NCBI RefSeq assembly: GCF_028882255.1
Contig: NZ_JARBUY010000001.1
Span: 1,084,344-1,148,343, forward strand
Origin: Maribacter polysaccharolyticus
Lineage (GTDB): Bacteria > Bacteroidota > Bacteroidia > Flavobacteriales > Flavobacteriaceae
Reading direction: 5' to 3'
Length of the DNA: 64,000 nt
Shown here: positions 6,024 through 27,317 of the stretch, in pieces
How positions within the stretch are numbered: position 1 is the stretch's first letter
Layout: each line of letters starts with the position of its first letter
Notes under the pieces: model-generated
The model's database searches: none
The model's input: only the letters and a program-made list of their open reading frames with translations
Told to the model about the DNA's origin: nothing
Position numbers and translations under genes: made by a program

Positions 6024-6029
6024 AAGAAC

Positions 6030-6323
6030 ATGAAAAATTACGACACTCTTTCAGAAGCCATTAACGATTTACAGGCAAACGAATATCCTTATGATTTTAA
6101 CTTAAAGCCTGAATGCTTGGAATGCGCTTCACTGAAAATTGAGCTTCGACCAGAAGATTTTAAAGTAGATAAAACCTATCGCTTCGAAGGAATGAGCAGT
6201 ACAGATGACAATAGCGTTCTTTATGCCATTTCATCAAAGAATGGAGTTAAAGGACTGTTGGTAGACGCCTACGGTGTCTATGCCGAAAATATTTCAGAGG
6301 CAATGCGCAAAAAATTACGATAA
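6030..6323 (+). CDS. Small hypothetical protein, found beside PRPP synthetase
   Basis: A 97-residue soluble protein. It carries two closely spaced cysteines (KPECLECASLK) and a conserved-looking C-terminal part (GVKGLLVDAYGVYAE). Short proteins of this kind in Bacteroidota are sometimes annotated as phosphoribosylpyrophosphate synthetase by association only; it has no PRPP-binding loop, so I do not accept that name. It is separated by six bases from the previous gene and 17 bases from the copper ATPase gene. The role is unknown. Confidence 0.7.
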   Translation: MKNYDTLSEAINDLQANEYPYDFNLKPECLECASLKIELRPEDFKVDKTYRFEGMSSTDDNSVLYAISSKNGVKGLLVDAYGVYAENISEAMRKKLR

Positions 6324-6340
6324 CACTTAAATAGAACACT

Positions 6341-8458
6341 ATGGACAATAACAAAGACAAAAAAATGGACCACTCGAAAATGGAAAGCCCAAAATCCAAC
6401 GACCACAGTAAGATGGATCACTCTAAGATGGATCACTCTAAGATGGATCACTCAAAAATGGAACATTCCGATCATGGGGGAAGTGTTCCTATGGGAATGG
6501 CAGGTCATGACCATCATAAAATGATGATAGCCGATTTTAGAAAAAGGTTTTGGGTCACTTTGATATTAACCGTACCCATTCTATTCTTTTCTCCGATGAT
6601 CCAGGAATTCTTTGGATATAGTCTTCTGCTTCCGGGGAACCCCTACATCCTATTTGCCCTTTCCTCCATTGTATATTACTATGGTGGCTGGCCATTTTTA
6701 AAAGGTCTCGTTTCTGAGATTAAAAAGGGTGCTCCAGGAATGATGACCTTAATATCCATGGCTATTAGCGTCGCCTATTTTTATAGTTCAGCGACGGTTT
6801 TTGGGTTACAAGGCGTCGATTTTTTCTGGGAATTGGCTACCCTAATTGCAATTATGTTGTTGGGGCATTGGATTGAAATGAAGAGTGTTCTCGGCGCATC
6901 AAAAGCCCTACAGTTATTGGTTAGTATGATGCCTGCTGAAGCACACCGGGTAAAAGGGGATACTATTGAGGACATCAAGTTGGAAGACCTTTTAAAGGAC
7001 GATGTTATTCTAATTAAACCTGGGGAAAAAGTACCTGCCGACGGAATCATTACAGAGGGCTCCAGTTACTTGAACGAATCTATGCTCACCGGAGAGTCCA
7101 AACCGGTCAAAAAGGAGTTGAACGATAAGGTAATCGGGGGTTCGGTAAATGGCAATAGTACCTTAAAAGTTAAAGTAGAGCATACAGGAAAAGACAGTTA
7201 TCTCAACAAGGTAATAAAGATGGTCGAGGAAGCCCAGAAAACCAAGTCCAAGATGCAGAACCTTTCCGATAGGGCTGCAAAATGGTTGACTTACATAGCA
7301 CTGGCCATTGGCTTTGGCACCTTGGCGGTTTGGTTGATTTTAGGCTTTCCGTTTGTGTATGCCTTGGAGAGAATGGTTACCGTAATGGTTATTGCCTGCC
7401 CGCATGCCCTAGGTTTGGCCATTCCCTTGGTAGTAGCCATTTCCACTGCGGTTTCCGCACAAAATGGACTGCTAATCCGTAATAGAACGGCATTCGAGGA
7501 ATCCCGAAAAATATCAGCATTGCTTTTTGATAAGACGGGTACGTTGACCAAAGGGGATTTTGGAGTTACGCGTATTGAATCGGTGGATAAAAAGTACACT
7601 TCGGATGAAGTCTTACGACTGGCAAGTGCCTTGGAACAAAGTTCCGAACACCCCATTGCTGTTGGGATAATAAAAAAGGTCAAGGAGGAAAGTGTTGCAG
7701 TCCCGAAACCTGAAAGTTTCAAGTCCATTACCGGAAAAGGTGTTGAGGCTACCGTAAAAGGTAAAAAAATAAAAGTGGTAAGCCCCGGTTATTTACGGGA
7801 TAAAAAAATAACCATTCCCGAAGATGCCTATAGCGATGCCGCAGAAACGGTGGTATTCGTTTTAATAGATGGGAAGTTGGCAGGTTACATTGCCCTTGCC
7901 GATGAGATCAGGGCAGAATCCGCCGAGGCCATTAGAGTATTTAAAAAGAACAATATCAAAGTGTTGATGGCTACCGGGGATAATGAAAAAACCGCTAAGG
8001 CAGTAAGCGATAAACTTGGCCTAGACGGTTATTATGCCGAAGTACTGCCCCACCAGAAAGTGGAAATCGTAGAAGAATTGCAAAATAAAGGGGAATTTGT
8101 GGCTATGACAGGAGATGGCGTAAACGATGCCCCTGCATTGGCCAAAGCAAATGTTGGTATTGCGGTGGGATCCGGCACTGATGTTGCCGCCGAGACCGCC
8201 GATATTATTCTGGTCAACAGCAACCCACAGGATATCGCCAACCTAATTTTATTCGGGAAGGCCACCTATAACAAGATGATCCAAAACCTGATTTGGGCTA
8301 CGGGTTACAATGTTGTTGCCATTCCTTTGGCTGCCGGAGTATTGTATTCTTCAGGGTTTGTTTTAGGACCGGCCGTTGGAGCGGTATTTATGAGCTTATC
8401 CACCATCATAGTAGCCATCAACGCTCAATTATTAAAGAGGAAAATCGGGAAAAAATAA
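6341..8458 (+). CDS. copB: Copper-exporting P1B-type ATPase, CopB type
   Basis: A 705-residue heavy-metal P-type ATPase. The N-terminus (residues 1-60) is a Met/His/Asp-rich metal-binding tail with repeated DHSKM units. The core has LTGES (actuator), the transmembrane CPH motif (IACPHALGLAIP) typical of the CopB subgroup rather than CPC of CopA, the phosphorylated aspartate in DKTGTLT, SSEHPIA, and the hinge TGDGVNDAP. CopB-type pumps export Cu(I), Cu(II) or Ag(I) from the cytoplasm. There is no CxxC metal-binding domain, as expected for this subgroup. The MFS gene ATG overlaps its stop codon, so the two are co-translated. It probably provides copper resistance within the cluster. Confidence 0.95.
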   Translation: MDNNKDKKMDHSKMESPKSNDHSKMDHSKMDHSKMDHSKMEHSDHGGSVPMGMAGHDHHKMMIADFRKRFWVTLILTVPILFFSPMIQEFFGYSLLLPGNPYILFALSSIVYYYGGWPFLKGLVSEIKKGAPGMMTLISMAISVAYFYSSATVFGLQGVDFFWELATLIAIMLLGHWIEMKSVLGASKALQLLVSMMPAEAHRVKGDTIEDIKLEDLLKDDVILIKPGEKVPADGIITEGSSYLNESMLTGESKPVKKELNDKVIGGSVNGNSTLKVKVEHTGKDSYLNKVIKMVEEAQKTKSKMQNLSDRAAKWLTYIALAIGFGTLAVWLILGFPFVYALERMVTVMVIACPHALGLAIPLVVAISTAVSAQNGLLIRNRTAFEESRKISALLFDKTGTLTKGDFGVTRIESVDKKYTSDEVLRLASALEQSSEHPIAVGIIKKVKEESVAVPKPESFKSITGKGVEATVKGKKIKVVSPGYLRDKKITIPEDAYSDAAETVVFVLIDGKLAGYIALADEIRAESAEAIRVFKKNNIKVLMATGDNEKTAKAVSDKLGLDGYYAEVLPHQKVEIVEELQNKGEFVAMTGDGVNDAPALAKANVGIAVGSGTDVAAETADIILVNSNPQDIANLILFGKATYNKMIQNLIWATGYNVVAIPLAAGVLYSSGFVLGPAVGAVFMSLSTIIVAINAQLLKRKIGKK
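6410..6454 (+). repeat. Three tandem 15-bp units inside copB
   Basis: The unit AAGATGGATCACTCT occurs three times head to tail (third copy with one or two changes) and encodes repeated KMDHS. The flanking codons carry looser versions. The near-identity at the DNA level suggests recent expansion by slippage, which would change the number of Met/His metal sites in the pump tail. Confidence 0.85.
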
Positions 8459-9666
8459 TGAACAAAAAAGAAAAGCTTAACAAAATATTTTTGGTTTTGT
8501 TGAGCCTATTTGTGGTAATGCTGGGATATGGTATTCTGCTGCCCATTCTTCCCTACTATACGGAAAGATTGGCTTTGGAAGACAACCTGGATGCCGATCT
8601 AATCAACTTCCATATCGGAATGTTGATCAGCATTTATCCGTTATTTCAGCTCATATTCGTAATTGTATGGGGAAGACTTTCCGATAAATATGGTCGTAAA
8701 CCTATAATTTTAATAGGCCTGATCGGATTTATAGTGATGAACTTATTGACGGGTCTGGCTACTTCTCTTACAATGTTATATGTAGCCCGTATCTTCGGGG
8801 GAATATTTACATCATCCGTAATTCCTGTCAGCAATGCCTATTTAAGTGATATAACCTCTGAAAAGCGAAGGACCAAGATTATGGCATGGTCCGGGGTTGC
8901 CATTAGTTCTGGCCTTATCTTTGGCCCAGTGTTGGGGGGTCTATTGTCCCAAGCCAACGTTCACTTTCAATATTCTTTTGGGGTATTCCATTTTGACCGA
9001 TTTTCAGTTCCTTTTCTTTTTGCTGCAGTATTAGGGTTAATCATATTGATAGTTATTATAAAATGGTTGAAAAACACTGCCATAGTCACCAAGATTAGAG
9101 AAGAAGCGACAAAATTCAGTTTCTCCTTTAGTAGCTATTTTATGTTGCTGTTAACACTGTCTTTCGTTATGCAATTTGTTGTGACACTTTTCGAAACTGT
9201 CTTTTCAATTTATGGGAAGGATGAATTGGCGTTCGATAGTAGTCAAGTCGGTATTGGCTTTATGCTTTGCGGTTCTGTGATGGCGGTTTTACAACCTGTT
9301 TTCGCTGTTTATGGGGAAAAGATAATGTCTTCGAAGAGTCAAATTGCAATAGGTTTAACGATAACTGGACTTTCGCTTATTGTTTTTCCATTTATGGGCA
9401 ATGAATTATTTGTTTACGGATTAATCGTTGTATTTGCTGCTGGAGGTGCTTTAGTAACACCAAATTTGCTATCTGCTGTTTCATTGATATCCAAGAATGA
9501 CACAGGCAGGAATATTTCTATACAAAGCTCAACTAATAGTATTGGCCAGATTTTAGGACCTGTTTTAGGGACTTGGCTAATTGCAGGCGGTTTTTACTAT
9601 CCATTTATAATTGCTGGTGTGGTCGTTTTGGCTGCAATAGGATTGGTTTATTATTTAAAGCAATAA
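8458..9666 (+). CDS. MFS drug/metal efflux transporter (TetA-like)
   Basis: A 402-residue major facilitator with about 12 membrane segments. It has the loop 2-3 motif A (GRLSDKYGRKPIILIG) and motif C-like GLIFGPVLGG, as in the TetA/multidrug exporters. I start it at the ATG that overlaps the copB stop (TAATG); the same frame stays open further upstream inside copB, but that part reads as a shadow of copB. The first helix then follows a short lysine-rich leader, as usual. Co-transcription with copB suggests a resistance function; the substrate cannot be told from sequence. Confidence 0.88.
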   Translation: MNKKEKLNKIFLVLLSLFVVMLGYGILLPILPYYTERLALEDNLDADLINFHIGMLISIYPLFQLIFVIVWGRLSDKYGRKPIILIGLIGFIVMNLLTGLATSLTMLYVARIFGGIFTSSVIPVSNAYLSDITSEKRRTKIMAWSGVAISSGLIFGPVLGGLLSQANVHFQYSFGVFHFDRFSVPFLFAAVLGLIILIVIIKWLKNTAIVTKIREEATKFSFSFSSYFMLLLTLSFVMQFVVTLFETVFSIYGKDELAFDSSQVGIGFMLCGSVMAVLQPVFAVYGEKIMSSKSQIAIGLTITGLSLIVFPFMGNELFVYGLIVVFAAGGALVTPNLLSAVSLISKNDTGRNISIQSSTNSIGQILGPVLGTWLIAGGFYYPFIIAGVVVLAAIGLVYYLKQ

Positions 9667-11115: not shown

Positions 11116-11285
11116 GTTCAGCACATTCCCACTTCATTCCATTACTCTCCATTTCGGGCAAAGCGCTTCACTAAAAAAGTCTTGGACCCAATCCCCGTTT
11201 TTGGCTTTCCACTTCGCTACCCCCTCCCCGCTTTGCTGGGAAAGAACGTTACATTCCCAAACAAAAACCGTAGATAGCGTCCTCT
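11116..11285 (-). repeat. Dispersed repeat, copy A (short)
   Basis: This 170-bp stretch closely matches 22440-22610 and, over its right half, 18808-18910. Shared pieces include AAAAAAGTCTTGGACCCAAT and a CCCTCCCCGC block. It fills most of the roughly 360-bp gap between the broken cardiolipin synthase and the deacetylase gene. It lacks the outer part seen in copies B and C. No gene was recognised in it. Confidence 0.8.
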
Positions 11286-11345: not shown

Positions 11346-12251
11346 TCACAATCCTAATTCATCCATTTTTTCTTTTTCATATCTACTACCCTCTGCTGGA
11401 TAACGCAATATATCTTTATATTGACCAGAATCTTTAGCAAGAGCATATATTAAACTTTCACCTGCAAAGTTGGTTTCAGTTTTATAAACCGGATCTTCAT
11501 AAGCTACAGTTGCTGAAACAATTTCCCAACCTTTATCCTTAAACATTTTAATCAAGTCGTCTATAAATAATGCAGCAGCCAAATTATGGTGCAATAAAAG
11601 TGTATGTTTAATATGCCTTCCGTTAAGTTCTAAAGACAATTTTTCATAAAATTGCGCACGTCTCCAAATATGACTTAAATAAAATTCTCTAAAATCACTT
11701 TTATCGGCATTGGGATTGTCTCTTAACCTTTTCACTAATCTGCTATCAATGTACCAATCTGAAGCATCAATCGTAACAAAGCCGTTTTTATAATTCCGGC
11801 TTTTCAGGAAACTACGAAAAGCATCTACTTTTTCTTTGGTATTACCTTCCTTCAAATATGGGAATCTAAAAAACCTGCTATAGTTGGAATAAGACTCAAT
11901 GACTTTATCGTTTTTAATGAAATCGCTTTCAAAGTCAGCAATCGTAGTCGTTATAGCACTATAATTTGAATGCGAAAACGTATGATTCGCAATTTTATGA
12001 CCATCATTATTCCAACCTTCCAATAGTTTTTTCCCTTTTGCACCTGTTTTATCATTTCCTGTCACAAAAAGCATCGCTTCTATATTGGCATCCTTTAGTT
12101 TTTTTAAAAGCATTCCGTTCCATTCGTCAAAAGTGTAGTTTGGTCTATTGCCTAACGCGCCATCATCAAAGGTAAAACTTACCTTTGACTGGCTAAATAC
12201 CTGAATTGTAACCAATAAAATTAGTGTTGTTATTATCTGTTTCATTTTCAT
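11346..12251 (-). CDS. Polysaccharide deacetylase (NodB/CE4 fold)
   Basis: A 301-residue exported protein with an N-terminal signal peptide (about 20 residues) followed by a NodB homology domain. Visible motifs are SFTFDDG (catalytic Asp and metal Asp), HKIANHTFSHSNY (the H-x4-H metal pair) and FRFPY (motif 3). CE4 enzymes remove N- or O-acetyl groups from chitin-like polymers, peptidoglycan or other polysaccharides in the periplasm. It is the last gene of the unit behind BlaI, the M56/M23 sensor and the TonB receptor, ten bases after the receptor stop. That placement suggests a cell-wall or glycan-related response. Confidence 0.9.
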   Translation of the reverse strand: MKMKQIITTLILLVTIQVFSQSKVSFTFDDGALGNRPNYTFDEWNGMLLKKLKDANIEAMLFVTGNDKTGAKGKKLLEGWNNDGHKIANHTFSHSNYSAITTTIADFESDFIKNDKVIESYSNYSRFFRFPYLKEGNTKEKVDAFRSFLKSRNYKNGFVTIDASDWYIDSRLVKRLRDNPNADKSDFREFYLSHIWRRAQFYEKLSLELNGRHIKHTLLLHHNLAAALFIDDLIKMFKDKGWEIVSATVAYEDPVYKTETNFAGESLIYALAKDSGQYKDILRYPAEGSRYEKEKMDELGL

Positions 12252-12261
12252 GGTTTTAGTG

Positions 12262-14655
12262 TTATAATCTATCGTATTGTTGTCCTTTTTTGCCTTGATA
12301 TCGTTTTTGATTCCATCTATAAATAAATGAAACGTTTAATTGTGGTACGCGAACCTGTGATTTTATGTTTTGCTTAAAGTTTTCACCTCTGGTTTTAATA
12401 TTCCATTCCCAACTGTCAAAAATATCTTTAATGTTGATACTCAATGACGCATTATCATTTAACAGATTTTGACTCATACCAAAATCTAATCGGTATAGGG
12501 CCTTTCGTGATAATTGACCTCTGTTGTTGGCGCCTCTAAATCTATTCTGAAATTGAAACTTAAAAGAATTGGTTACCTTAAAATCAAGATGCAATCGACC
12601 ACTAAATGCAAATCCATTGGTATCAAAATTTGTGGTTTCATAACTACCTCGCTGTTCATACCCATTCAAAGTAACTTCATTATAAATGCTAAACCAGTTT
12701 ATTGGTTTATAGATAAAGCCCAATTCAAGTCCGTAAGAATTGTCAGTACCAATATTCACTGTTCTGGTCACAAAGACTTCTTCAATGTTTCCATTGATTG
12801 AAATGTTTTCTTTTTGAATAAAGTAATCCATATCTTGATTCGTTCTACGGAAGAATAATGTTGGCGCTAAAGTAAATTTATTGCTGAACTTTGACTCAAA
12901 AGCCAGTTCCGTAAGAATAACGTACGATGGATTTACCTCGGGATTACCCACGAAAATATTCCTGGAATCACTAAATGAGGAAAACGGAACAATATCATAT
13001 CGTCTTGGTCTTTGAATTCGTCGAGATATTGAAAAACGAAGGCTTTTATCATCATTAAACTGATAATTCAGAAAACTTGAAGGAAATGCATTTGTATAGT
13101 TTCTCGATATTTTTTTTGTATTATTATTAGATGTGATGTCGATATTGGTCGTTTCTGTTCTTAACCCTATTTGAAATTTGAACTTCTTAAAACTTTTTGC
13201 ATATTGTCCATAAAATGCAGTCACATTCTCGCTGTAGTTAGTCTCATCAGAAAATTCAGGGATTATAGTTGTGATGTCATCTTCTAAACGATTTCCCACA
13301 TAGTCATTATCTATATTTGTAAATCTGCCTCTGCTGCCAAATTCAAGCTGTGATTTGTTCTTCAGTATATGAACATAGTCAATAGCCACCGTAAAACGTT
13401 TGTCGTCAATGTCGTTGTCAATGGCGTCATTGGCATAAATTTCCACCTGTGGAAATGTGTTTTCTTCTACAATTGTAGAGTTGCCGTCTTCAATGGATGA
13501 TTGTGTTAATGCACTTAATTTTAGTAGTGAGCCTCTTTCATTCAGATTTAATTTATATTCACTTGCAATCTGAAAGAAATTGTTATTAAATTCTTCGGAA
13601 TCAAAACGCTCCGAAGTTCCATATAAACTATTATTATCATAATCTTCATAAGCAATGGAATTGATCGTATTCAGATTTGCGAGTCGATAGGTAAAGTCTG
13701 CTGTAACAGAATGTTTCGAATTGAATTTATATTCGCCGCCAAGGTTATTCAAAACATAAAATTGTTTGAGTATTTTTTCGGAATTCTGGAAACTTTCCGA
13801 TGGAAATGATTCAAAATCAGAAAGTGCTATTTCGCCTGTTGCTTTTGGTTCAGAATAGCCCAAGCCACTATTAATGTACCACGAGTAATTTTCGTCTGCT
13901 TTATTGATGTTTACATTGACACCAGAGTTTAAACGTACCCCAGAAAAGATCTCAAAGCTGCTACTTAACCTTTTTTTCTTACCTTTTTTTAAAATAATAT
14001 TAATGATTCCACCAGAACCTTCGGCGCTATATTTTGAGGATGGATTGGTAATTACCTCTACCTTATCTATGGACGCTGCTGGAATCGTTCGCAAAAGTAA
14101 TGCTGTATCTGTCAAGCCACTAATACGACCATCTATTAAGATATGCACACTTCCATTTCCCCGAATACTCATTTTACCATCAACTTCTACCTGTACAGAT
14201 GGTACATTTTGCATAACATCGATTAAGCTTCCTCCACTTACCGAAAGGTCTTTAGATACATTGTAAACTTTTTTGTCCAGTTCAATTTTATAGTTTGAAT
14301 CATTAGAAGTGACAACGACTTCATCTAACGAGACTTCCGTATTTATGATAATATCGCCAAGATTCTTTTTGCTTTTTGAACTTGCTAAATCGAGCGATGT
14401 AATAGTTGACGGGAAACCAATTACAGAGACTTCAAAATTATAGACTTGTTTTGGTACTTCAATTGAGAAATTTCCATTCTCGTCTGTCAAAGTTCCGAAG
14501 ATGGTTTCAGGATTAACTTTAGCTATAAGTATAACATTTACATAAGGCACAGGAACATAGGCTTTATCTTTAATGGTTCCTGTAACAGTCGTATTTTGGG
14601 CTAAAATACTGTGTGAAAAGCAGAGGATATAGAATAATTGAAATATTGATTTCAT
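12262..14655 (-). CDS. TonB-dependent outer membrane receptor family protein
   Basis: A 797-residue outer membrane protein. After a signal peptide (residues 1-19) comes a carboxypeptidase-regulatory-like beta-sandwich (about residues 22-100), then a plug with DEVVVTSND and a segment around residues 120-220 including SIRGNGSVHILIDGRI, then a beta-barrel of the outer-membrane-barrel type common in Bacteroidota. No SusD partner is adjacent, so it is not a classical glycan SusC. It lies between the M56/M23 sensor gene and the deacetylase gene, and I infer control by BlaI through the operator at 16501-16536. The ligand is unknown. Confidence 0.88.
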   Translation of the reverse strand: MKSIFQLFYILCFSHSILAQNTTVTGTIKDKAYVPVPYVNVILIAKVNPETIFGTLTDENGNFSIEVPKQVYNFEVSVIGFPSTITSLDLASSKSKKNLGDIIINTEVSLDEVVVTSNDSNYKIELDKKVYNVSKDLSVSGGSLIDVMQNVPSVQVEVDGKMSIRGNGSVHILIDGRISGLTDTALLLRTIPAASIDKVEVITNPSSKYSAEGSGGIINIILKKGKKKRLSSSFEIFSGVRLNSGVNVNINKADENYSWYINSGLGYSEPKATGEIALSDFESFPSESFQNSEKILKQFYVLNNLGGEYKFNSKHSVTADFTYRLANLNTINSIAYEDYDNNSLYGTSERFDSEEFNNNFFQIASEYKLNLNERGSLLKLSALTQSSIEDGNSTIVEENTFPQVEIYANDAIDNDIDDKRFTVAIDYVHILKNKSQLEFGSRGRFTNIDNDYVGNRLEDDITTIIPEFSDETNYSENVTAFYGQYAKSFKKFKFQIGLRTETTNIDITSNNNTKKISRNYTNAFPSSFLNYQFNDDKSLRFSISRRIQRPRRYDIVPFSSFSDSRNIFVGNPEVNPSYVILTELAFESKFSNKFTLAPTLFFRRTNQDMDYFIQKENISINGNIEEVFVTRTVNIGTDNSYGLELGFIYKPINWFSIYNEVTLNGYEQRGSYETTNFDTNGFAFSGRLHLDFKVTNSFKFQFQNRFRGANNRGQLSRKALYRLDFGMSQNLLNDNASLSINIKDIFDSWEWNIKTRGENFKQNIKSQVRVPQLNVSFIYRWNQKRYQGKKGQQYDRL

Positions 14656-14767
14656 AAATATTTTTATGGAAATTTGGATGTACTTGTCCTGTTCTTCTTA
14701 AAAAAGAGAACCTTAATTTGGTCAAAAGACCATATTTAAAATTTAGATAATATTTAGAGAGTGGCTA

Positions 14768-16093
14768 CTATTCTATAAAATCCATAGGGTTTAATTGCGT
14801 ACCGTTTTGCTTTACTTCGTAGTGCAGATGTGACCCAGTGGAAAGCCCCGTATTTCCAACATAACCGATAATATCTCCTTTTTCCACGGCTTGTTTTTCG
14901 CTGACATTGAACCCGTTTAAATGTGCATACCAAGTTTCGTAGCCATCTGTATGCGTCATGACTATTAAATTCCCCCAATCACCTTCCATTGAAGCTTTGG
15001 CAATTGTACCATCTGCGGTAGCAATAACCAGTGTGCCAATTTTTGCCCTAATATCGATACCAGTATGTGCTACACTTGTTTTGGTTTTTGGACGTTTACT
15101 TTTTTCTCCAAAAAAAGATGTAATGTCATTTTTTGAGGCATTCTGTATAGGAAATAGCGTAGGAGGTGTACTTGAAAACCCAGGAACTTTTATAATATTC
15201 AGGTTTTCAACAGTTTCAATACCTGATGCTATAAATGCTGTAATTAAAAATACACAAACCGGTGATAATAACATGTATTTAAGTTTTGCAAGACCATTGG
15301 ATTTAGGCTTGGTCATCATTGTTATTCGTTTTTTTAAGATAGGTTCATTGAAGTAATTGTATAAATTATTTGGATTTGAAATCTCAAGGCTTTGCACTAG
15401 TAATTGTAGATATTGTGAAGTTTTGACTCCATTTTGAAGCACACCTTTATCTGCTTGAAATTCGTGCACTGCTTTTAAAGACCTTCTATAAAAACACAGT
15501 AGTGGATTAAACCAAAAGAATGCAATATAAACCTCTGTTAGAAGCACATCCCATGAATGTTTTAATTGAATATGTGCTTTTTCGTGTTCTATGATTTGTT
15601 TGTCATAGTGTTCGATTTTATCTTCTGGAATAAAAACCCAATTGAAGTATGAGAATATTTCAGGAACCTTTGATACAATTAATTCATATCCATTTTTTTG
15701 AATAATTCTAGAATGACTTCTCAATACATATAAATGCCATACTCTGGCTAAAAGTCTAATAAATAAAACGGAAAATACTAACCAATATAATGTAATTGAT
15801 AGTGTGGAATAATTAAATGATGAATCAATCAAAGGTTGCTCAATAACCTGCAATTGCTTGTTAAATGTGTCTAAATTAACCTGCTCAAATAAAGGAACTT
15901 TTATAATTTTTGATCCTATGGAAGGAAATAGATTATTTGAAAAGGGAATACTAACTGAAACAGGAAGCAACAATAGTAAAACAAGCCTGTTTACATTATG
16001 AAACGTCAGTTTATTTAAAAACATGATATACAGAAGATAGAACACCGAAAAAACCGTGGCTACTTGAATGAGATATAAAATTATATTATTCAT
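14768..16093 (-). CDS. BlaR1-like M56 metallopeptidase sensor fused to an M23 (LytM) peptidase domain
   Basis: A 441-residue membrane protein. Residues 1-120 carry about three membrane helices. The M56 domain has the zinc motif HEKAH (about residue 168) in IIEHEKAHIQLKHSWD. A further helix near residue 275 leads to an extracytoplasmic M23 domain whose ligands are visible (HTGID near 343, GSHLHYEV near 425). BlaR1 proteins normally end in a penicillin-binding domain; here a peptidoglycan endopeptidase-like module takes its place. Its stop codon is followed after about 110 bases by the TonB receptor gene, and its start overlaps the blaI stop by eight bases. A cell-wall-sensing protease that inactivates BlaI is the likely role. 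Confidence 0.88.
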   Translation of the reverse strand: MNNIILYLIQVATVFSVFYLLYIMFLNKLTFHNVNRLVLLLLLPVSVSIPFSNNLFPSIGSKIIKVPLFEQVNLDTFNKQLQVIEQPLIDSSFNYSTLSITLYWLVFSVLFIRLLARVWHLYVLRSHSRIIQKNGYELIVSKVPEIFSYFNWVFIPEDKIEHYDKQIIEHEKAHIQLKHSWDVLLTEVYIAFFWFNPLLCFYRRSLKAVHEFQADKGVLQNGVKTSQYLQLLVQSLEISNPNNLYNYFNEPILKKRITMMTKPKSNGLAKLKYMLLSPVCVFLITAFIASGIETVENLNIIKVPGFSSTPPTLFPIQNASKNDITSFFGEKSKRPKTKTSVAHTGIDIRAKIGTLVIATADGTIAKASMEGDWGNLIVMTHTDGYETWYAHLNGFNVSEKQAVEKGDIIGYVGNTGLSTGSHLHYEVKQNGTQLNPMDFIE

Positions 16094-16469
16094 TTTTTTT
16101 CTTTAGTTTTTCGATTTTGCTTTCAAGCATTAACTTCATTTTTTCCAATTCAGTAAGGTTTAGATCTTCATTATTGGCAAAAAACAATGCAAACTTACTC
16201 GGTGAACCACTAAAGAAGTTGCCAATCACTTCCTTCATATGTCTTTTAAAGTAGGTCTCCTTTGAAACCGCCGCATAATACCGACGGATTTTACCATAGG
16301 TGTCAAATTTTAAAAACTCTTTTTTTACTAAAACCCTTACCACGGTTGATATAGTAGTATATGCAGGTTTAGGTTCTGGAAACTGTTCTACAATATCCTT
16401 AAGGAAGGCTTTTTCAAGTTTCCAAACATATTGCATCACTTGCTCTTCGGCTTTTGTTAGTTCATTCAT
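16086..16469 (-). CDS. blaI: BlaI/MecI/CopY-family transcriptional repressor
   Basis: A 127-residue winged-helix repressor. The opening NELTKAEEQVMQYVWKLEKA is typical of the penicillinase repressor family, followed by the recognition helix region (AYTTISTVVRVLVKK) and a C-terminal dimerisation part with a segment around IGNFFSGS that is a plausible cleavage region. It is followed by the M56/M23 gene with an eight-base overlap, the standard repressor-sensor order. A pair of dyads (16501-16536) lies upstream of its start, and the same dyads occur at 18684-18719, so it probably represses both its own unit and the beta-lactamase-like unit. Confidence 0.92.
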   Translation of the reverse strand: MNELTKAEEQVMQYVWKLEKAFLKDIVEQFPEPKPAYTTISTVVRVLVKKEFLKFDTYGKIRRYYAAVSKETYFKRHMKEVIGNFFSGSPSKFALFFANNEDLNLTELEKMKLMLESKIEKLKKKNE

Positions 16470-16500
16470 ATGGTAAATATATAAATAATATTCAAAATAC

Positions 16501-16536
16501 GACTATAAATATAGTAATATGACTATATTCATAGTC
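16501..16536. promoter_or_regulatory. BlaI operator pair upstream of blaI
   Basis: Two adjacent dyads, GACTATAAATATAGT and GACTATATTCATAGTC, are separated by five bases and begin 32 bases before the blaI start. The same double dyad stands before the second unit at 18684. The spacing and repeat are typical of a dimeric winged-helix repressor site. Confidence 0.75.
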
Positions 16537-16673
16537 GTATTGCATTTTGTGTCTTTTTATTAGATGTACGATTGAAGGTCATATGTGATTTTCAATAGTA
16601 ATATGTATTATCTTTATCCATTGTGTAATCCCTCACAATCAACTACCTACTTTAATGAAAATCGTATTTAGTC

Positions 16674-18050
16674 TTATTGTTTTTCTCCTTCTAACTCAAT
16701 CCTTTTTTTACTGGAAAGAAATTGTAATTTCATTTTATTGTTTATTTCAATAAATTTAAAATACAATTCGAAGGACAAAGGATAGAATTGATCTTGAGCC
16801 ATTGGTAATAATTTCACTTTTGGGAAAACCGGACTGTCTGTAAATAAGGAACCATTTTCTAAATATATTCGAATGGGAAAATTGTGATTTGTTTTATATG
16901 TACCCACATATTTTTTCAGAATGCTCTCTTTTAAAATTATTGTTCTGGGTATTTTTGTTTCCCAATGCAATCCTTCAATGACTTCCATACCATTAATTAG
17001 GATTGCCTTATTAATAGTATTGGTAATACTGGCCCCGTTGTCGCTGTTCACAAAAATTACGATACCATTTTGACTTTTTGGGAATAGTATCAGCGTGGTA
17101 ACCACACCTGGGTCACCACCATCGTGATTTATTATATACTCGCCATTACTCAGTTTATCATAAACCACCCAACCCAATCCTTGGTTCAATTTTTCATTTA
17201 TGGCCGATTGAGGTTTTATCATCTCATCATATAGAACACCATCAACTACTTTTTTATGCATAATGGCATTCCCAAAAAGCAATAAGTCATTTACGGTTAG
17301 CAGCATATCATCTGCTGCGTTGATTTTTGTTATTTTGTAGTTTATGGAATGTAGATTTCCCCTTGTATCGTACCACTTGGCAAATCGGGAAGTATCTTTA
17401 TCTGCCAACCAACCCATTTTGGCATCTTTCATTTTTAAAGGTTTAAAGACAAGAGAGTCCACAATCTTTTCCAGCCCTATTTTAAATTTGCTTTCAACAG
17501 CGTGCCTCAAATATTCCATGCCTTCACCAGAGTACTGAAATTCGGTTCCTGGTTTAAAATTGAATTTTAATTTTCCGTCTTCTTCATCCCAACGCCAGTT
17601 TTTAAATCCTGTGGTATGCGATAGGCAGTTTCTAGTTGTGATTAATTTTGCGTAGGCATCGTTAGCTACATCTGGATCTGTCCAATAATGATACAAGGGT
17701 TCGTCTAAATCCCAATCGCCATGAGCTACCAGTTTTAAAATAGCTGCCGTTACAACAGGTTTGGTAATACTGGCAACATTAAAAATAGTGTTTTGTGGTG
17801 CTTTAGAGCCTTTTTGATTTTCGCCATACACTTTTACCACTTCAATTTTACCATCTTCTATAATTCCCACGCCGACAGCTGGAGCATGATATTCAGCCAT
17901 AAGTTTTGGGACAATACTATCTAATGTCTTTTTATAGTTTGGTTTAAAGATGGTTGTTTTGCTGTTTGATTTTTGCTCATTGGAACAAGCAACTAGCAAT
18001 AAAAAGAACAGACAATATCCGTAGAATGATTTAGTTTTAAACAGGCTCAT
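16674..18050 (-). CDS. Serine beta-lactamase-like hydrolase (class C / esterase), lipoprotein
   Basis: A 458-residue protein with a lipoprotein signal (FFLLLVACSN, Cys about 22). The beta-lactamase/penicillin-binding fold covers residues 40-350, with the SxxK nucleophile motif in VASITKPVV, a YSGEG segment corresponding to the YxN position, and HDGGDPGV corresponding to the KTG-like third motif. A C-terminal lipocalin-like part follows. Members include AmpC-like lactamases, D-aminopeptidases and esterases, so true beta-lactamase activity is not certain. It overlaps the upstream NTF2-like gene by 14 bases. The operator and BlaI context make an antibiotic or cell-wall role more likely. Confidence 0.88.
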   Translation of the reverse strand: MSLFKTKSFYGYCLFFLLLVACSNEQKSNSKTTIFKPNYKKTLDSIVPKLMAEYHAPAVGVGIIEDGKIEVVKVYGENQKGSKAPQNTIFNVASITKPVVTAAILKLVAHGDWDLDEPLYHYWTDPDVANDAYAKLITTRNCLSHTTGFKNWRWDEEDGKLKFNFKPGTEFQYSGEGMEYLRHAVESKFKIGLEKIVDSLVFKPLKMKDAKMGWLADKDTSRFAKWYDTRGNLHSINYKITKINAADDMLLTVNDLLLFGNAIMHKKVVDGVLYDEMIKPQSAINEKLNQGLGWVVYDKLSNGEYIINHDGGDPGVVTTLILFPKSQNGIVIFVNSDNGASITNTINKAILINGMEVIEGLHWETKIPRTIILKESILKKYVGTYKTNHNFPIRIYLENGSLFTDSPVFPKVKLLPMAQDQFYPLSFELYFKFIEINNKMKLQFLSSKKRIELEGEKQ

Positions 18051-18513
18051 GATCGTAGCTTACTGTGCGTTTTATAATCCAAGAACTTTCATTTCTTTCC
18101 CAGATAATAATAAACTTTCCTCTTTGTACTTTCTTTCCATCCTCATAAAATTCATGAATGCCCATTTCTACGGCGCCATAATCGCCTAAAACATGTACTG
18201 TAGCATTAACTAATTGTCGGGTCACAGCAAAAGGTCTGGAACATCTGTCGTTAAAAGAAGCAATTTCAACATCAAAAGATGTATTAAGTCCAGAACGGTC
18301 ATCGTAAAACTCTATATTGGGGGACATTATTTTCTTATAAAGTTCTAAATCGCATTTGTTGAATGCTACATTAAAAAATAAACTGTCCATTTTTAGAATC
18401 TCGTATTTTAATGATTTTTCGGTTATTGGATTATCTGCTTTTTGCGAGAAAAGAGGGTTTGAAAAGAATATAAAAAGAAGAAATGCGTAATTGAAGAATT
18501 TTATTGCTTTCAT
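18037..18513 (-). CDS. NTF2-like (SnoaL/DUF4440-type) exported protein
   Basis: A 158-residue protein with a signal peptide (residues 1-23, NYAFLLFIFFSNPLFSQ) and one NTF2-like alpha+beta barrel domain. Typical features are the segment KMDSLFFNVAFNKCDLELYKKIMSPNIEFYDD (given here only for location, residues about 41-72) and a C-terminal WIIKRTVSYDHEP. It is probably periplasmic. It is the first gene of the unit controlled by the second BlaI-type operator and overlaps the beta-lactamase-like gene. The small-molecule ligand is unknown. Confidence 0.8.
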   Translation of the reverse strand: MKAIKFFNYAFLLFIFFSNPLFSQKADNPITEKSLKYEILKMDSLFFNVAFNKCDLELYKKIMSPNIEFYDDRSGLNTSFDVEIASFNDRCSRPFAVTRQLVNATVHVLGDYGAVEMGIHEFYEDGKKVQRGKFIIIWERNESSWIIKRTVSYDHEPV

Positions 18514-18600
18514 TGTTTTTATGCGTTTGATTAATATCTGATTGATGTCATCTAGACGATTTATTCATACTGTTGTTACAATGTCAATATTGTATATAAA

Positions 18601-18655
18601 CCGGTTTTTCAAGCTGCAATACAACTTGTTCTTCAGTTTTTGTTAGTTCATTTAT
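18601..18655 (-). pseudogene. Relic of a second blaI gene (5' end only)
   Basis: Reading the minus strand gives NELTKTEEQVV then LQLEK, nearly the same as the first 20 residues of the intact BlaI (NELTKAEEQVM ... KLEK), with the start codon changed to ATA and a short internal deletion. It lies between the second operator and the NTF2-like gene. The promoter-operator plus blaI start was therefore duplicated, and only the 5' end remains. Confidence 0.75.
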
Positions 18656-18683
18656 TGACCGAATATATTATTTTTCTTCATTT

Positions 18684-18719
18684 GACTATAAATATAGTCA
18701 TATTACTATATTTATAGTC
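18684..18719. promoter_or_regulatory. Second BlaI operator pair
   Basis: GACTATAAATATAGTC, five bases, then ACTATATTTATAGTC. It has the same double-dyad design as at 16501-16536, placed about 170 bases before the NTF2-like/hydrolase unit and just before the blaI relic. It would place that unit under the intact BlaI. Confidence 0.75.
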
Positions 18720-18807
18720 GTACTCTTATCGGAAATATTATAAAAAAATTATAAAGGCAAGAAAAAAGCACTGTAGTTAATAGAGTATTTCTGCACTTTT
18801 CTACCTA

Positions 18808-19035
18808 AAGCCTTGGCCATAATCACCGTATTTGGCTTTCCACTTCACTACCCCTCCCCGCTTTGCAGGGAAGTAACGCTTCATTACCACACCAAAACCG
18901 TGAATCAGGTCCGCTTGTAATCGGAAAGTCAAAGCCTCGATTTTATTGACAGAAGTATCAGCAAAGTCTACTATTGTCTTTTCCGATACTTCTTGAAAAT
19001 CAAGTCTTCGCATTACACATTTTAAGGAGTTTATA
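18808..19035 (-). repeat. Dispersed repeat, copy B
   Basis: It matches copy C (22440-22718) along its length and copy A over its left part. The minus strand contains an 83-codon open frame (19052 to 18801) with a segment KIEALTFRLQADLIHGFG that is also readable in copy C (KIEALTFRLQADLIRGFG), so the repeat may descend from a protein-coding sequence. I do not recognise that protein and do not call a gene. Confidence 0.75.
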
Positions 19036-22439: not shown

Positions 22440-22718
22440 ATTCAGCACGTTCCCTTTCATTATATTCCAGGCAAAGAGCTTCACTAAAAAAGTCTTGGAC
22501 CCAATCCCCGTTTTTAGCCTTCCTCTTCGCTACCCCTCCCCGCTCTGCCGGGCAGGAACACTGCGCTCCCTAGCCAAAACCGCGAATCAAGTCCGCTTGT
22601 AACCGGAAAGTCAAAGCCTCGATTTTCTTGACAGAACGATCGGCAAATCCGACTTCGGTCTTTGCTCGATACTTCTTGAAAATCAAGACTTCGCCTTACA
22701 CATTTTAAGGGGTTTATA
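22440..22718 (-). repeat. Dispersed repeat, copy C (longest)
   Basis: It contains both the part shared with copy A (11116-11285) and the part shared with copy B (18808-19035), so it is the most complete copy. It stands about 370 bp before the ssb gene that opens the mobilization module. All three copies have the same orientation. Minus-strand coding-like segments shared with copy B suggest a lost gene. Confidence 0.8.
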
Positions 22719-23084: not shown

Positions 23085-23420
23085 ATGAGTACTATTAGAA
23101 ACCACGTACAGTTAATTGGTAATGTTGGACAAGAGCCAACTGTTACGAACCTTGAAAGCGGTAAGAAAGTAGCCCGATTCCCATTGGCCACCAATGAAAG
23201 CTACAAAGACAATAAAGGTGAAAAGCAAACGGACACCAATTGGCACACCGTTGTTGCTTGGGGCAAGACTGCCGAAATCATCGAAAAGTATGCCGATAAA
23301 GGCAAGGAAATCGGTGTGGTCGGAAAATTAAAGTCCCGCACCTTCACCGCAAATGACGGTAACCAACGCTATGTTACCGAAGTGGTAGCCGATGAAATCC
23401 TGTTAATGGGCACTAAGTAA
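23085..23420 (+). CDS. ssb: Single-stranded DNA-binding protein, element-encoded short form
   Basis: A 111-residue OB-fold protein. NHVQLIGNVGQEPTV, the WHTVVAWGKTAE segment and GVVGKLKSRTF are standard SSB motifs. It covers the single-stranded DNA made during transfer or replication. It lacks the usual Gly-rich linker and the acidic tip (DDDIPF-type) by which SSB recruits partners, ending instead at ILLMGTK just after the OB fold. Such short SSBs are usual next to mobilization genes of Bacteroidota elements. It is followed by a strong terminator. Confidence 0.95.
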   Translation: MSTIRNHVQLIGNVGQEPTVTNLESGKKVARFPLATNESYKDNKGEKQTDTNWHTVVAWGKTAEIIEKYADKGKEIGVVGKLKSRTFTANDGNQRYVTEVVADEILLMGTK

Positions 23421-23426
23421 AAAGAT

Positions 23427-23464
23427 AAAGAGGGTGTTCCCTTGGCAAGTAACACCCTCTTTTC
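23427..23464 (+). terminator. Intrinsic terminator after ssb
   Basis: A perfect 12-bp stem (AAAGAGGGTGTT / AACACCCTCTTT) with a 12-base loop, beginning seven bases after the ssb stop. Confidence 0.85.
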
Positions 23465-23490
23465 ATCATTAAACCCAAAAAGACGTAATA

Positions 23491-23871
23491 ATGAAAGCAC
23501 AAGTTAATGAAATACTAGAGGGATTGCAACATTTTCACGGTTCTGAAATGTACTATGAAATCCCATTGATACGAACCCGATTTACAAACGGACTGCAATA
23601 TTTGGCCCAGGTAGCGGAATGCTTTTGGTTGATTACCGATACTTCGGTAATCGCCAAAAGTTTATTGGATAGAAGCTATTTTATCACCATTGATTTTAAA
23701 AGGCTATCGAAAGAAGAACAGGATTCTACAGGCTACGAGGCCGAAATAATCTACAGCGATGGAAACGGTACTATATTGGAAACGCATCGATACCACGTTA
23801 CCGATTTTCCTCTGGATGAACTGCGCTTGTATTTTGTGGATGATACGCTGATGCTACCAAGTGAATATTAA
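23491..23871 (+). CDS. DUF6876-like protein of mobile elements
   Basis: A 126-residue soluble protein with a conserved-looking N-terminus (QHFHGSEMYYEIPLIRTRFTNG, residues 14-35), the middle YLAQVAECFWLITD and the end TDFPLDELRLYFVDDTLMLPSEY. The C-terminal FPLDE/LPSEY pattern fits the DUF6876 family, which I recall as common beside ssb in Bacteroidota mobile elements. The function is unknown. It is possibly expressed separately from ssb, since a terminator lies between them. Confidence 0.75.
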   Translation: MKAQVNEILEGLQHFHGSEMYYEIPLIRTRFTNGLQYLAQVAECFWLITDTSVIAKSLLDRSYFITIDFKRLSKEEQDSTGYEAEIIYSDGNGTILETHRYHVTDFPLDELRLYFVDDTLMLPSEY

Positions 23872-24311
23872 AGTGGAAGACTTATGAAATCCATACAACC
23901 ATAAGTAGGTTTCCCATATCCAAATAACAAAACACACCAAACGGGCCCTTTTATTATGAAGGGCTTTTTTGATGCCCAATCCCCTAATTTCCATATCTTT
24001 ATAGCTTTAGAAAAGCATTGATTTTCTAGTGGTCATCACCTTGATTTTAATTTGACTTTCCTTGATGGCCATATTCGTAAAATATGATAGAGGCAACCCA
24101 CGATAGTGAGGTTGTTCGGAAATTTTTGGTCCCCTTGGGACGAAAAATGGAGAAGCAAGAGGGTAACACGCTGCGCGATGTTACGACGGTTTATCTATAT
24201 ACAATATACTGATTTACAGCGTATTAAATGTGTTTATGAAATCGATGGCCTGGGGCTTTTACAGCAAATGACGTCAGAACACCCTTAAACAGGTACTTTT
24301 TTACAGTAAAA
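23872..24311. other. Gap before the mobilization operon; candidate oriT region
   Basis: 440 bp without a convincing gene. A G+C-rich stem (GGGCCCTTTTA then AAGGGCTTTTTT, about 23942-23970) looks like a terminator for the DUF6876-like gene. The rest (24060-24300) has short repeats such as TTTACAGC twice and an A+T-rich patch TATATACAATATA. In BtgA/BtgB-type systems the transfer origin lies just upstream of the mob genes, so oriT is expected here, but I cannot identify a nic site. Confidence 0.4.
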
Positions 24312-24851
24312 ATGAAGGATCCGTATCAAAAATATCGTTTTTCGGCCATTAATATCAAAAAGGATGTTGCCATACGCTTTCGGAACTTTTCCCGATTGGT
24401 GTCGGATTCGCATACCCATACCTTGGAGAGGGTCATGAACTTCTTTGAATGGAACGACCTTTCACCCAACGATGATCTGGGCATCAATAACAACAGGACC
24501 AACAAGCGGATCAATGCCGTTATCGCCATACTTAAAAATATTGAAAAGCATCAGACCCTACCCACCAAGGCGATGCTGGATACCCTCTTCCAAGAGATTT
24601 CAAACATGGAAAATACCGAGGAAAAGGAGGAAGATTTTGATTTTGGGTCGCCCGAACCGCTTTCCCGGGACAACGAACTGGACCACTACCGAAACCGCTA
24701 TGAAGAAATGCAACAACTCCTTGGAAATCACAAAAACAGGATGCTGGATCTTTTGAAGCGTATGACCTATGTCAAAGGAACTTTTGGGAAAGGGCATTAT
24801 AAACTGGATATGGACCAACCCGAATTTGAAAAATTAAAAAAAGAACTATAA
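24312..24851 (+). CDS. BfmA/BtgA-family mobilization accessory protein
   Basis: A 179-residue protein. The N-terminus (YQKYRFSAINIKKDVAIRFR, residues 5-24) resembles the ribbon-helix-helix-like start of BfmA/BtgA mobilization proteins. The C-terminal half is charged and probably coiled-coil. Such proteins bind oriT and help the relaxase nick. Its stop is one base before the relaxase ATG region (24853), so the two are co-translated. Confidence 0.8.
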   Translation: MKDPYQKYRFSAINIKKDVAIRFRNFSRLVSDSHTHTLERVMNFFEWNDLSPNDDLGINNNRTNKRINAVIAILKNIEKHQTLPTKAMLDTLFQEISNMENTEEKEEDFDFGSPEPLSRDNELDHYRNRYEEMQQLLGNHKNRMLDLLKRMTYVKGTFGKGHYKLDMDQPEFEKLKKEL

Positions 24852-24852
24852 T

Positions 24853-25887
24853 ATGTACATTACCATTACCGCACAGCAAGTTGAGGGCAATTATTCCCAA
24901 AGTGCCACCGCTTTCGTGGACTATCTCGAAAAGGAAAACGAGGGGAAACCCATAGCCGAACTGGAATATTTCTTTAACCAGTATGGGGATGAAATCCCTG
25001 CCGAAGAGGTGGTCATCGAAATTGACGGGAACACGGCCAAGCTGAAAAGGACAGAGCCCAAATTCTATTCCATCACCCTGAATCCAAGTAGGCGCGAACT
25101 TAAGGCTATAGGGAATTCCCCCGAGGCCCTCAAACGCTATACCCGGGAAGCGATGAAGGACTATGTCAATGCCTTCAATAGGGACATTGACGGTAGGCCA
25201 GTAACCGTGGACGATATTAAATACTATGCCAAGGTGGAACGCCAACGCACCTTTAAGGGAAGTGATGCACAGATTATCGAAAACCAACCCTATGCCACCA
25301 AAATCCTGAACTTGAAGCAAGAGATCCGTCGTATCGAAAACGGGGAACATAGAGGGGATATCAAAAAACTGCAAAGGGAGATGGTGCGCCTGGAAAGGAA
25401 AGCCCCCCACCAATTGAACGGCAAGCGCATTGTCAGGGGAACGCCCAAACCGGGACCGCAGTGCCATATCCATATCATTGTCAGCCGTAAGGACGTCTCC
25501 AACCGGTACAGCCTCTCCCCTGGGAGCAAGTACAAGGCCTCCGTTGTTGAGATGAACGGTAAGACCGTAAAACGCGGCTTTGACAGGGATACCTTTATTA
25601 CAAATGCGGAGAAGACTTTTGACCGGTTATTTCGTTTTAACCGAAACTTCGTAGAGACCTATACCGCTAGGAAGACCTTTCTAAAGAATCCGAAGCTTTA
25701 TTTTTCCATAATCACAAAACTACCGACCAATGAAAAGGCCCTGGCGTTTAAACTCCTGCAAAAAGCTGGGGTCAGTACCTCCTTGTTACACCTTCCGACC
25801 AATAAGCTCCAAGTGACCGTCAAAGCGATCAATCTATTGAAAAAAGGAATCGGCAAGGCCATCGAATCAGGCTCCATTGGGTTATGA
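24853..25887 (+). CDS. DUF5712/BtgB-like relaxase (mobilization protein B)
   Basis: A 344-residue protein. YITITAQQVEGNYSQSATAF near the N-terminus and a tyrosine-rich region come first; SITLNPSRRELKAI resembles motif II of HUH relaxases. The histidine motif QCHIHIIVSRKD (about residue 197) is the metal-binding H-x-H signature of relaxases. The family includes BtgB of the clindamycin-resistance transfer factors. It nicks oriT and carries the strand into the recipient. The next gene's ATG overlaps its last codons (4 bases). Confidence 0.85.
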   Translation: MYITITAQQVEGNYSQSATAFVDYLEKENEGKPIAELEYFFNQYGDEIPAEEVVIEIDGNTAKLKRTEPKFYSITLNPSRRELKAIGNSPEALKRYTREAMKDYVNAFNRDIDGRPVTVDDIKYYAKVERQRTFKGSDAQIIENQPYATKILNLKQEIRRIENGEHRGDIKKLQREMVRLERKAPHQLNGKRIVRGTPKPGPQCHIHIIVSRKDVSNRYSLSPGSKYKASVVEMNGKTVKRGFDRDTFITNAEKTFDRLFRFNRNFVETYTARKTFLKNPKLYFSIITKLPTNEKALAFKLLQKAGVSTSLLHLPTNKLQVTVKAINLLKKGIGKAIESGSIGL

Positions 25888-27317
25888 GCTGGCAGGCCGA
25901 ACATATCATCCTTTATATTGTTGTACCGGTGTTATTCGTGGGTACGGTACTCTTTACACTACTGTTCGGGGAAGTGCATGAACGGACGGATAAAAAATAC
26001 AAGGTTCGTTTCAAATTAAAGTACGGTAGCTTCACCGTGGATAATATCCGTAGGGGTACTTCGGTCATCGGTTCGGCAGGAAGCGGCAAGACAGAAAGCA
26101 TCGTCTATAATTTCTTGCAACATTTCAGTGCGTACGGCTTCTGTGGGGTAATCCATGATTATAAGGACTTTGATCTGACCGAGATCGCCTATCCCTTGTT
26201 CAGGGAGAACAACATTCCGTTCTATACCATTGCCTTTGATGAGATCCATTTCCGGGTCAACCCCATCGCCCCTAAATATTTGCCCAACGAGGAAAGTGTC
26301 AATGAACTCTCCAGGGTACTGATGGAAAACTTGTTGGAACAGGACCTATCACAGAATAAAGGGAGCAACAAATTTTTCTCCGACGCCGTAGAGGGTCTTT
26401 TAAGCGGTATTATCTGGAAAATGAAAACCGCCTATCCGGAGTATTGCTCCCTCCCCCATATCATTGCCCTCTTCCATACGGCAAGTACCAAAAAACTGGT
26501 GGCTTTACTTAAATCGGACCTGACCTCCCAAAGTATGGCCAGTGCCTTTATCCATGGAATCGAATCCGAAAAGCAGACCGCCGGCATCAAAAGTACCCTC
26601 TCCAATGCCTTTAAAAAAATCAGTTCCAAAAAGGTGTTCTATGTGCTTTCCAAGGATGAAGTACCCCTGGACATCAACAACCCGGACAATCCGGCCGTGG
26701 TATCGCTGGTCAACAACCCTAAATACGATGCGGCCTACTCCCCTATCATTGCTATGGTCATGCATACCCTAGTCAAACAGATGAGTGTCCGTGGTATGAA
26801 ACCTTCCTTTCTCTTGATGGAAGAGGCACCGACCATCAAACTACCCAATATGCACCGGATTCCCGCTACCTTGAGGAGTTACGATATTTGTACCGTTTAT
26901 GTTATGCAGGATAAGGTGCAGAACGATCTGCTATATGGGGACAAGGCAAGCAAGGCCATTTTAAGCAACCTGTCCTATCAGTTCTTTGGTAAGGTCAATG
27001 ACCCCGATACCGCCAAATATTACGAACGTTTTTTTGAAATCATTAAAAAGCCCACACGAAGTATCAGCAAGAACAGTGGACTCAGCTTTGAAAGCCGCAT
27101 TACCAAAGGTGAAAAGGAGGTTTCCAAACGTAGGGCGGATATTTTTTTTCGATTGAAACAAGGCGAGTTCGTCGCCTTTGCAGATGGGAAGGATAAAAAA
27201 GTACAATTCAAATTACAACCTATTCGCAAAGCAATACCTGATACAAGCAAGACGTACTCCAATGAGGATATCCAATTGAACTTTGAGAGAATCCATAGGG
27301 AAATAAAGTCCTTATAA
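25884..27317 (+). CDS. VirD4/TraG-like type IV coupling protein
   Basis: A 477-residue ATPase with an N-terminal membrane segment (residues 7-27) and a cytoplasmic RecA-like domain: Walker A GSAGSGKTES (about residue 62), Walker B FLLMEEAP (about residue 309), followed by the arginine-containing sensor region PATLRSYDICTVYVMQD. Coupling proteins bring the relaxase-DNA complex to a conjugation channel. It has only one predicted membrane segment, as in the shorter coupling proteins of mobilizable elements. No channel (Tra/VirB) genes are in the window, so a helper conjugative element is required. Confidence 0.88.
   Translation: MSWQAEHIILYIVVPVLFVGTVLFTLLFGEVHERTDKKYKVRFKLKYGSFTVDNIRRGTSVIGSAGSGKTESIVYNFLQHFSAYGFCGVIHDYKDFDLTEIAYPLFRENNIPFYTIAFDEIHFRVNPIAPKYLPNEESVNELSRVLMENLLEQDLSQNKGSNKFFSDAVEGLLSGIIWKMKTAYPEYCSLPHIIALFHTASTKKLVALLKSDLTSQSMASAFIHGIESEKQTAGIKSTLSNAFKKISSKKVFYVLSKDEVPLDINNPDNPAVVSLVNNPKYDAAYSPIIAMVMHTLVKQMSVRGMKPSFLLMEEAPTIKLPNMHRIPATLRSYDICTVYVMQDKVQNDLLYGDKASKAILSNLSYQFFGKVNDPDTAKYYERFFEIIKKPTRSISKNSGLSFESRITKGEKEVSKRRADIFFRLKQGEFVAFADGKDKKVQFKLQPIRKAIPDTSKTYSNEDIQLNFERIHREIKSL

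Follow-up and report, generated by a model that had tools for sequence, protein, structure and literature searches.

A predicted BlaI-type regulon with a BlaR1-like M56–M23 fusion protein in Maribacter polysaccharolyticus: a candidate cell-wall-responsive switch

BlaR1 and MecR1 are known as penicillin sensors of a switch that in Staphylococcus induces resistance to penicillin, and many Bacteroidota have pairs of BlaI and an M56 protease to which no signal has been assigned. One BlaI–M56 pair of Maribacter polysaccharolyticus lies in the 64,000-nucleotide stretch of DNA analysed here (referred to as the window), and its M56 protein ends in an M23 peptidase domain. The locus therefore raises the question of which signal such a pair might read, and which genes it might control.

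Gene cluster and predicted double BlaI operators

Based on ORF and domain searches, the minus-strand cluster in the window consists of genes for a DUF4440 protein, an S12 hydrolase, BlaI, the M56–M23 protein, an outer-membrane beta-barrel protein and a polysaccharide deacetylase (Table 1), with ORFs as given in a preliminary description of this DNA. BlaI aligned over residues 3–117 with MecI and BlaI structures, and the gene for the outer-membrane protein starts 112 bp past the end of the fusion gene.

Table 1. Features of the cluster, in window coordinates
Feature	Position	Strand	Remarks
Predicted double BlaI operator 2	18684–18719	−	upstream of the DUF4440–S12 unit
Decayed copy of the blaI 5′ end	about 18605–18655	−	in the DUF4440–S12 leader; start codon position reads ATA
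Secreted DUF4440 (NTF2-like) protein, 158 aa	18037–18513	−	ORF and domain search
S12-family serine hydrolase, predicted lipoprotein, 458 aa	16674–18050	−	S94xxK, Y173SG, H309DGG
Predicted double BlaI operator 1	16501–16536	−	32 bp upstream of the blaI ATG
BlaI/MecI-family repressor, 127 aa	16086–16469	−	Penicillinase_R 98.2 bits, cut-off 22.6
BlaR1-like M56 protease with C-terminal M23 domain (residues 323–441), 441 aa	14768–16093	−	M23 3.8e-32, M56 1e-09
Conserved hairpin element GTTCTCTTTTTTAAGnAGAACAGGAnA..TACATCC	14670–14711	−	in the gap upstream of the outer-membrane protein gene
Outer-membrane beta-barrel protein	12262–14655	−	OMP_b-brl_3, carboxypeptidase-regulatory and plug domains
Secreted polysaccharide deacetylase	11346–12251	−	NodB fold; TFDDG, HTFSH and RFPY present

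Sequence searches identified paired dyad operators, present and conserved, upstream of the blaI gene itself. Each double site consists of two ACTATN4ATAGT dyads, 20 bp from centre to centre (ACTATN4ATAGT-N6-ACTATN4ATAGT). The operator core of the BlaI/BlaR1 and MecI/MecR1 systems is of the TACA..TGTA type; that of the window is ACTAT..ATAGT. The two double operators of the window had been described as identical. They were found at the positions given, before blaI and before the hydrolase unit, but proved to be near-identical: a same-orientation comparison gave 3 differences in 36 bases, and inverting one of the two reduced this to 1 of 36 (inverted pair I1, 97%). Under a simple composition model, perfect double sites are expected by chance about 6e-7 times per 64 kb and 5e-5 times per genome. 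The whole genome (4.76 Mb) contained three double sites with up to three mismatches and none of the reversed control pattern. The third site (G000:C14:518295–518328) is located approximately 47 bp before a second blaI, which is followed by the gene for an M56 protein without M23 (locus L023).

The search was extended to 30 further genomes with up to two mismatches, overlapping dyad triples being scored as one site; 33 separate sites were detected in 26 genomes, and none for the control pattern. As checked by homology, 31 of these lie directly before a blaI gene of the fusion type or the common type, and the remaining two precede an S12 hydrolase (G258) and an orthologous DUF4440–S12 unit (G199). 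Together with the genome under study (27 genomes in all), 33 of 36 double sites are located directly before blaI and three before S12 units. Among loci related to that of the window, an operator with up to two mismatches was detected 29–33 bp before blaI in 19 of 20, and likewise, with two mismatches, in G485; none was recognizable in L061, L143 and L144. Judging from this placement, the predicted operator is tied to BlaI. In a scan for sigma-70-type promoters, whose model does not cover the promoters of Bacteroidota, candidate promoters did not exceed those in shuffled sequences.

The cluster had been proposed to form one BlaI regulon. A BlaI-type regulon is supported by the two double operators in the window and by the position of 33 of the 36 sites, but its singleness is uncertain, because the same genome encodes a paralogous BlaI (the second copy, at L023), 40% identical to that of the window, behind a near-identical operator, and cross-talk is possible.

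The predicted control by BlaI is weaker for the outer-membrane protein and the deacetylase, because a separate conserved hairpin element precedes their genes. A GTTCT...AGAAC hairpin and, after it, a small GGAT...ATCC hairpin make up the element. Besides the window, it was detected in L067, L068, L069, L070, L071, L073, L074, L075 and L077; it precedes the outer-membrane protein gene in nine loci and the gene for a secreted M23-LysM peptidase in L077, and is present also where an amidase gene intervenes. It is unique in its own genome, and a survey of 249 genomes with a stricter form identified two loci, both of this cluster type. A search of Rfam gave no match to the element, and RNAalifold returned no consensus structure, probably owing to a one-base shift of one arm in part of the alignment. 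The element might act as a promoter, as a binding site or at the RNA level. Its position suggests that the downstream half of the cluster (outer-membrane protein and deacetylase) may have its own control; regulation of these two genes by BlaI would depend on operon read-through, which is not assured.

With respect to the genomic setting, direct repeats of approximately 95–230 bp (82–83% identical) are present at window positions 11176–11271, 18807–19035 and 22489–22718, the only three places in this genome, and border the whole cluster from DUF4440 to the deacetylase. Related copies lie on both sides of the L070 cluster (L070 positions 6018–6299 and 13929–14000). The repeats have the appearance of cargo-module borders. 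Mobilization genes adjoin the cluster on the plus strand (23085–27317: SSB, DUF6876, DUF5712 and a TraG/VirD4-type coupling protein), and L070 has the identical gene order, all except the coupling protein. In both genomes, a mobile element seems to carry the cluster. On its other side, the plus strand encodes a P-type ATPase with a His/Met-rich N-terminus (MDHSKM repeats; 6341–8458), followed by an overlapping MFS transporter frame (8293–9666).

Origin of the operator upstream of the DUF4440–S12 unit

Operator 2 and the start codon of the DUF4440–S12 unit are about 170 bp apart, and the leader between them carries a remnant of blaI. In comparison of the DUF4440 leader with that of L070 (G199), the conserved stretch behind the operator reads ATAAATGAACTAACAAAAACTGAAGAACAAGT...; this corresponds to the beginning of blaI (ATGAATGAACTAACAAAAGCCGAAGAGCAAGT...) apart from its start codon, which is gone. 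The remnant is in register with blaI codon 1, and weaker similarity to blaI runs on to about position 18542. Its local alignment score was 35.5, against 20.2 ± 2.7 for shuffled sequences (1 of 2000 as high), and the equivalent remnant in L070 scored 45.5 against 24.6 ± 2.8. Since this remnant lies behind operator 2, the operator must have come with a copied blaI operator, promoter and 5′ end. These sequences indicate that operator 2 arose when part of the blaI control region was duplicated in front of DUF4440–S12, and the remnant rejects the idea of two operators invented independently. A truncated blaI in another genome (G079:C289, L117) was considered as a further captured promoter, but was set aside because it sits at a contig end.

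An operator that arrived in this manner may be a passive leftover of the duplication, with DUF4440–S12 transcribed from another promoter; such a state would be compatible with any of the readings discussed below. Its arrival with a now decayed blaI copy, its distance from the start codon and its presence before this unit in two genomes only are as expected of a leftover. Against this, the half-site bases of the window and L070 leaders were identical at 20 of 20 positions, compared with 10 of 16 at the other operator positions and 13 of 28 in the stretch from operator to start, while 64 of 79 positions agreed in the blaI remnant. Half-sites kept amid decay are the pattern that retained BlaI binding would leave, with the reservation that this comparison draws on two genomes and one common duplication event. 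In addition, another S12 gene was found under a like operator in G258, a genome of the same genus: there (L116:1184–3089), the double operator lies 29 bp ahead of the gene for an S12 hydrolase bearing a TPR tail, with blaI and M56 next in line. This is a separate case, of an S12 gene under BlaI of the common type. On balance, a merely passive operator 2 seems improbable, and retained control of the DUF4440–S12 unit by BlaI is the reading followed here.

The S12 protein belongs to the beta-lactamase superfamily, and the only operator targets found other than blaI (in the window, G199 and G258) are serine hydrolases of this superfamily. Together with the presence of the BlaI and M56 families, this would suit a beta-lactam resistance system in disguise, with beta-lactam-induced wall damage as the natural inducer and the S12 protein as the resistance enzyme. 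Class C beta-lactamases carry YxN and KTG motifs, but the S12 protein has YSG and HDGG at these places, and its score against the class C model was 48 bits (cut-off 415), with the cut-off of every class C model far out of reach. The M56 protein has no penicillin-binding domain, and most of the related loci have no S12 unit. We regard a hidden resistance function as quite unlikely.

The M56–M23 protein and its distribution

The membrane protein had been described as carrying an M23 domain with intact HxxxD and HxH ligands in place of the penicillin-binding domain, and both the domain search and the alignment of 20 related fusions bear this out. The M56 motif H170ExxH174...E211 (H170, E171, H174 and E211) and the M23 ligands H343xxxD347, H391 and H422xH424 were intact and invariant in all 20. 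Also invariant were D215 and R256, corresponding to the Asp/Arg pair of BlaR1, and Phe248, which takes the place of Phe284 in the autocleavage loop of Staphylococcus aureus BlaR1, these three residues being assigned by spacing; the roles of the BlaR1 residues, including the Asp–Arg pair and the autocleavage-loop Phe, are taken from PMC9834060. On the repressor side, Phe97 aligned with Phe102, the P1′ residue of the S. aureus BlaI cleavage site, and was invariant in 20 loci.

An AlphaFold2 model of the protein (mean pLDDT 75) contained four membrane-type helices. Residues 4–251 matched residues 1–290 of S. aureus BlaR1 (8exs; Z 16.5, 225 residues, rmsd 4.5), and residues 308–441 matched M23 domains such as that of ShyA (Z 21.6, 131 residues, rmsd 2.0), the fold resembling the LytM domains of ShyA and DipM (Z about 21). 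Neither domain search nor structure comparison found a penicillin-binding sensor domain (SxxK), and M23 is in its place. Because the linker (residues 286–309) and the first periplasmic loop (55–92) were modelled with pLDDT below 50, the path of coupling between the two halves is unreadable from the model. With the cleavage residues of M56 and BlaI kept and M23 present, the protease half looks complete and the input half exchanged.

The proposed search for M56–M23 fusions in other Bacteroidota showed that the BlaI/M56–M23 pair recurs in 23 loci of Flavobacteriia, including Tenacibaculum, Aquimarina, Bizionia and Gillisia, with one fusion beyond Flavobacteriaceae, in G485, which belongs to a different family of this class. 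Cultured carriers of the cluster include Gillisia marina CBA3202 and Aquimarina algiphila M91. Full-length fusions were present in about 10 of 299 Flavobacteriaceae genomes, compared with M56 relatives in nearly all genomes searched; neither of two other searched genomes of the same genus contained the fusion, and a plasmid search gave no full-length fusion. In every locus whose contig extends that far, BlaI is encoded directly upstream. A variant arrangement, a single blaI followed by three tandem M56 genes, was observed in G117 (L066:5166–9552).

Downstream of the fusion, genes for the outer-membrane protein, the deacetylase and a secreted M23-LysM peptidase were found in nine of the 23 loci each, and 16 of the 23 encode the deacetylase and/or the M23-LysM peptidase there. 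From this gene company, the theme of the operon is taken to be peptidoglycan modification. Five loci (L065, L072, L078, L079 and L142) lack a wall enzyme downstream, which counts against a wall-responsive switch. In L069, a secreted Amidase_3 protein is encoded directly behind the fusion, while two Tenacibaculum MAGs encode M56–M23–Amidase_3 triple fusions (L073:8989–10866 and L075:3826–5703). That the amidase is found both fused and separate suggests that the domains in the periplasm are working enzymes.

A putative wall-responsive switch and its relation to known systems

Since the penicillin sensor is swapped for a wall-cutting enzyme and the targets are mostly wall enzymes, the switch probably reads the state of the cell's own wall. 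A BlaR1-type derepression switch, with its input changed from penicillin to the cell wall and with wall enzymes as output, is the reading that we favour, as somewhat more likely than not. BlaI dimers would occupy the double operators beside the promoters of blaI–M56/M23 and DUF4440–S12 and keep both off. The M56–M23 protein would span the inner membrane, with its periplasmic M23 domain engaging peptidoglycan cross-links. When the wall changes, because substrate is lost or builds up or because hydrolases attack it, this could be relayed to the cytoplasmic M56 protease, which would cut BlaI before the conserved Phe97. Upon release of BlaI, the sensor, the wall-modifying enzymes and, in this genome, the serine hydrolase would be made, the induced wall enzyme being, according to genome, the deacetylase, the M23-LysM peptidase or the Amidase_3 amidase. 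The operators, catalytic residues, domain order, conservation and gene company of this scheme are read from sequence; from them we infer that wall damage or fragments may be sensed.

As to the M23 domain itself, one possibility, somewhat less likely than not, is that the receptor relays through the membrane whether peptidoglycan occupies, or is being turned over at, the M23 active site, and in this way controls genes for remodelling the same wall. An enzyme would thus measure its own substrate; the triple fusions of L073 and L075 would then represent two hydrolases, M23 and Amidase_3, stacked on one receptor. M23 domains also act simply as enzymes, and the domain may for this reason be effector rather than sensor. 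In this main rival explanation, the protein would be a wall hydrolase anchored in the membrane, with BlaI setting its level, and the signal would enter elsewhere, for example through a cytoplasmic peptidoglycan dipeptide binding to BlaI, with M56 in a supporting role. Pure sensing would not need the invariance of all M23 catalytic residues, and Amidase_3 is part of the sensor in L073 and L075 and a separate secreted protein in L069, as expected of an enzyme. Binding of gamma-D-Glu dipeptides directly to BlaI/MecI has been reported, and proposed for Bacillus licheniformis (PMC3305447). On the other hand, M56 has kept its catalytic site and autocleavage Phe, and BlaI the Phe of its cleavage site, which fits proteolytic signalling; the C-terminal position of M23 is that of the sensor in BlaR1, and S. 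aureus BlaR1 was found to cut BlaI at P1′ Phe102 directly, without further components (PMC9834060). Taken together, an effector role of M23 with entry of the signal elsewhere appears rather unlikely, and the wall-responsive derepression switch is retained as the preferred reading.

The cluster shares with BlaI/BlaR1 and MecI/MecR1 of Staphylococcus and Bacillus a winged-helix BlaI, predicted operators of paired dyads, blaI and M56 genes that overlap, a four-helix M56 gluzincin with the autocleavage Phe and the P1′ Phe of BlaI kept, and a beta-lactamase-superfamily gene (here S12) as a predicted target. Unlike BlaR1 and MecR1, the transducer lacks the penicillin-binding sensor and has an active-looking M23 peptidase there, and the predicted targets are for the most part enzymes acting on peptidoglycan, plus an outer-membrane protein. 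The transducer thus has the protease features of BlaR1 but not its sensor, and for this reason we do not file it as a BlaR1 penicillin receptor. With common BlaI–M56 pairs bearing other C-terminal tails, such as L023, it shares gene order, operator spacing and the M56 domain, but the periplasmic part of L023 has no M23 and its BlaI is only 40% identical. With M23/LytM peptidases (ShyA, DipM, MepM and Csd), it shares the fold and the complete zinc site, but here the M23 domain is fused to a BlaR1-like protease whose repressor is encoded alongside. The M56–M23 combination has been mentioned, without a function, as a rare architecture (PMC9662197), and in a literature search of partial coverage, neither the regulon nor the M56–M23–Amidase_3 form nor the operator duplication turned up.

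Operator 2, with the fossil of blaI still visible behind it, illustrates how a gene can be recruited to such a switch by a copied repressor control region. The cluster offers a concrete, testable input, peptidoglycan acting through an M23 domain that looks active, and, to match it, an output of peptidoglycan enzymes. These observations suggest that the form responding to penicillin may be a single branch of a wall-sensing switch with a wider role.
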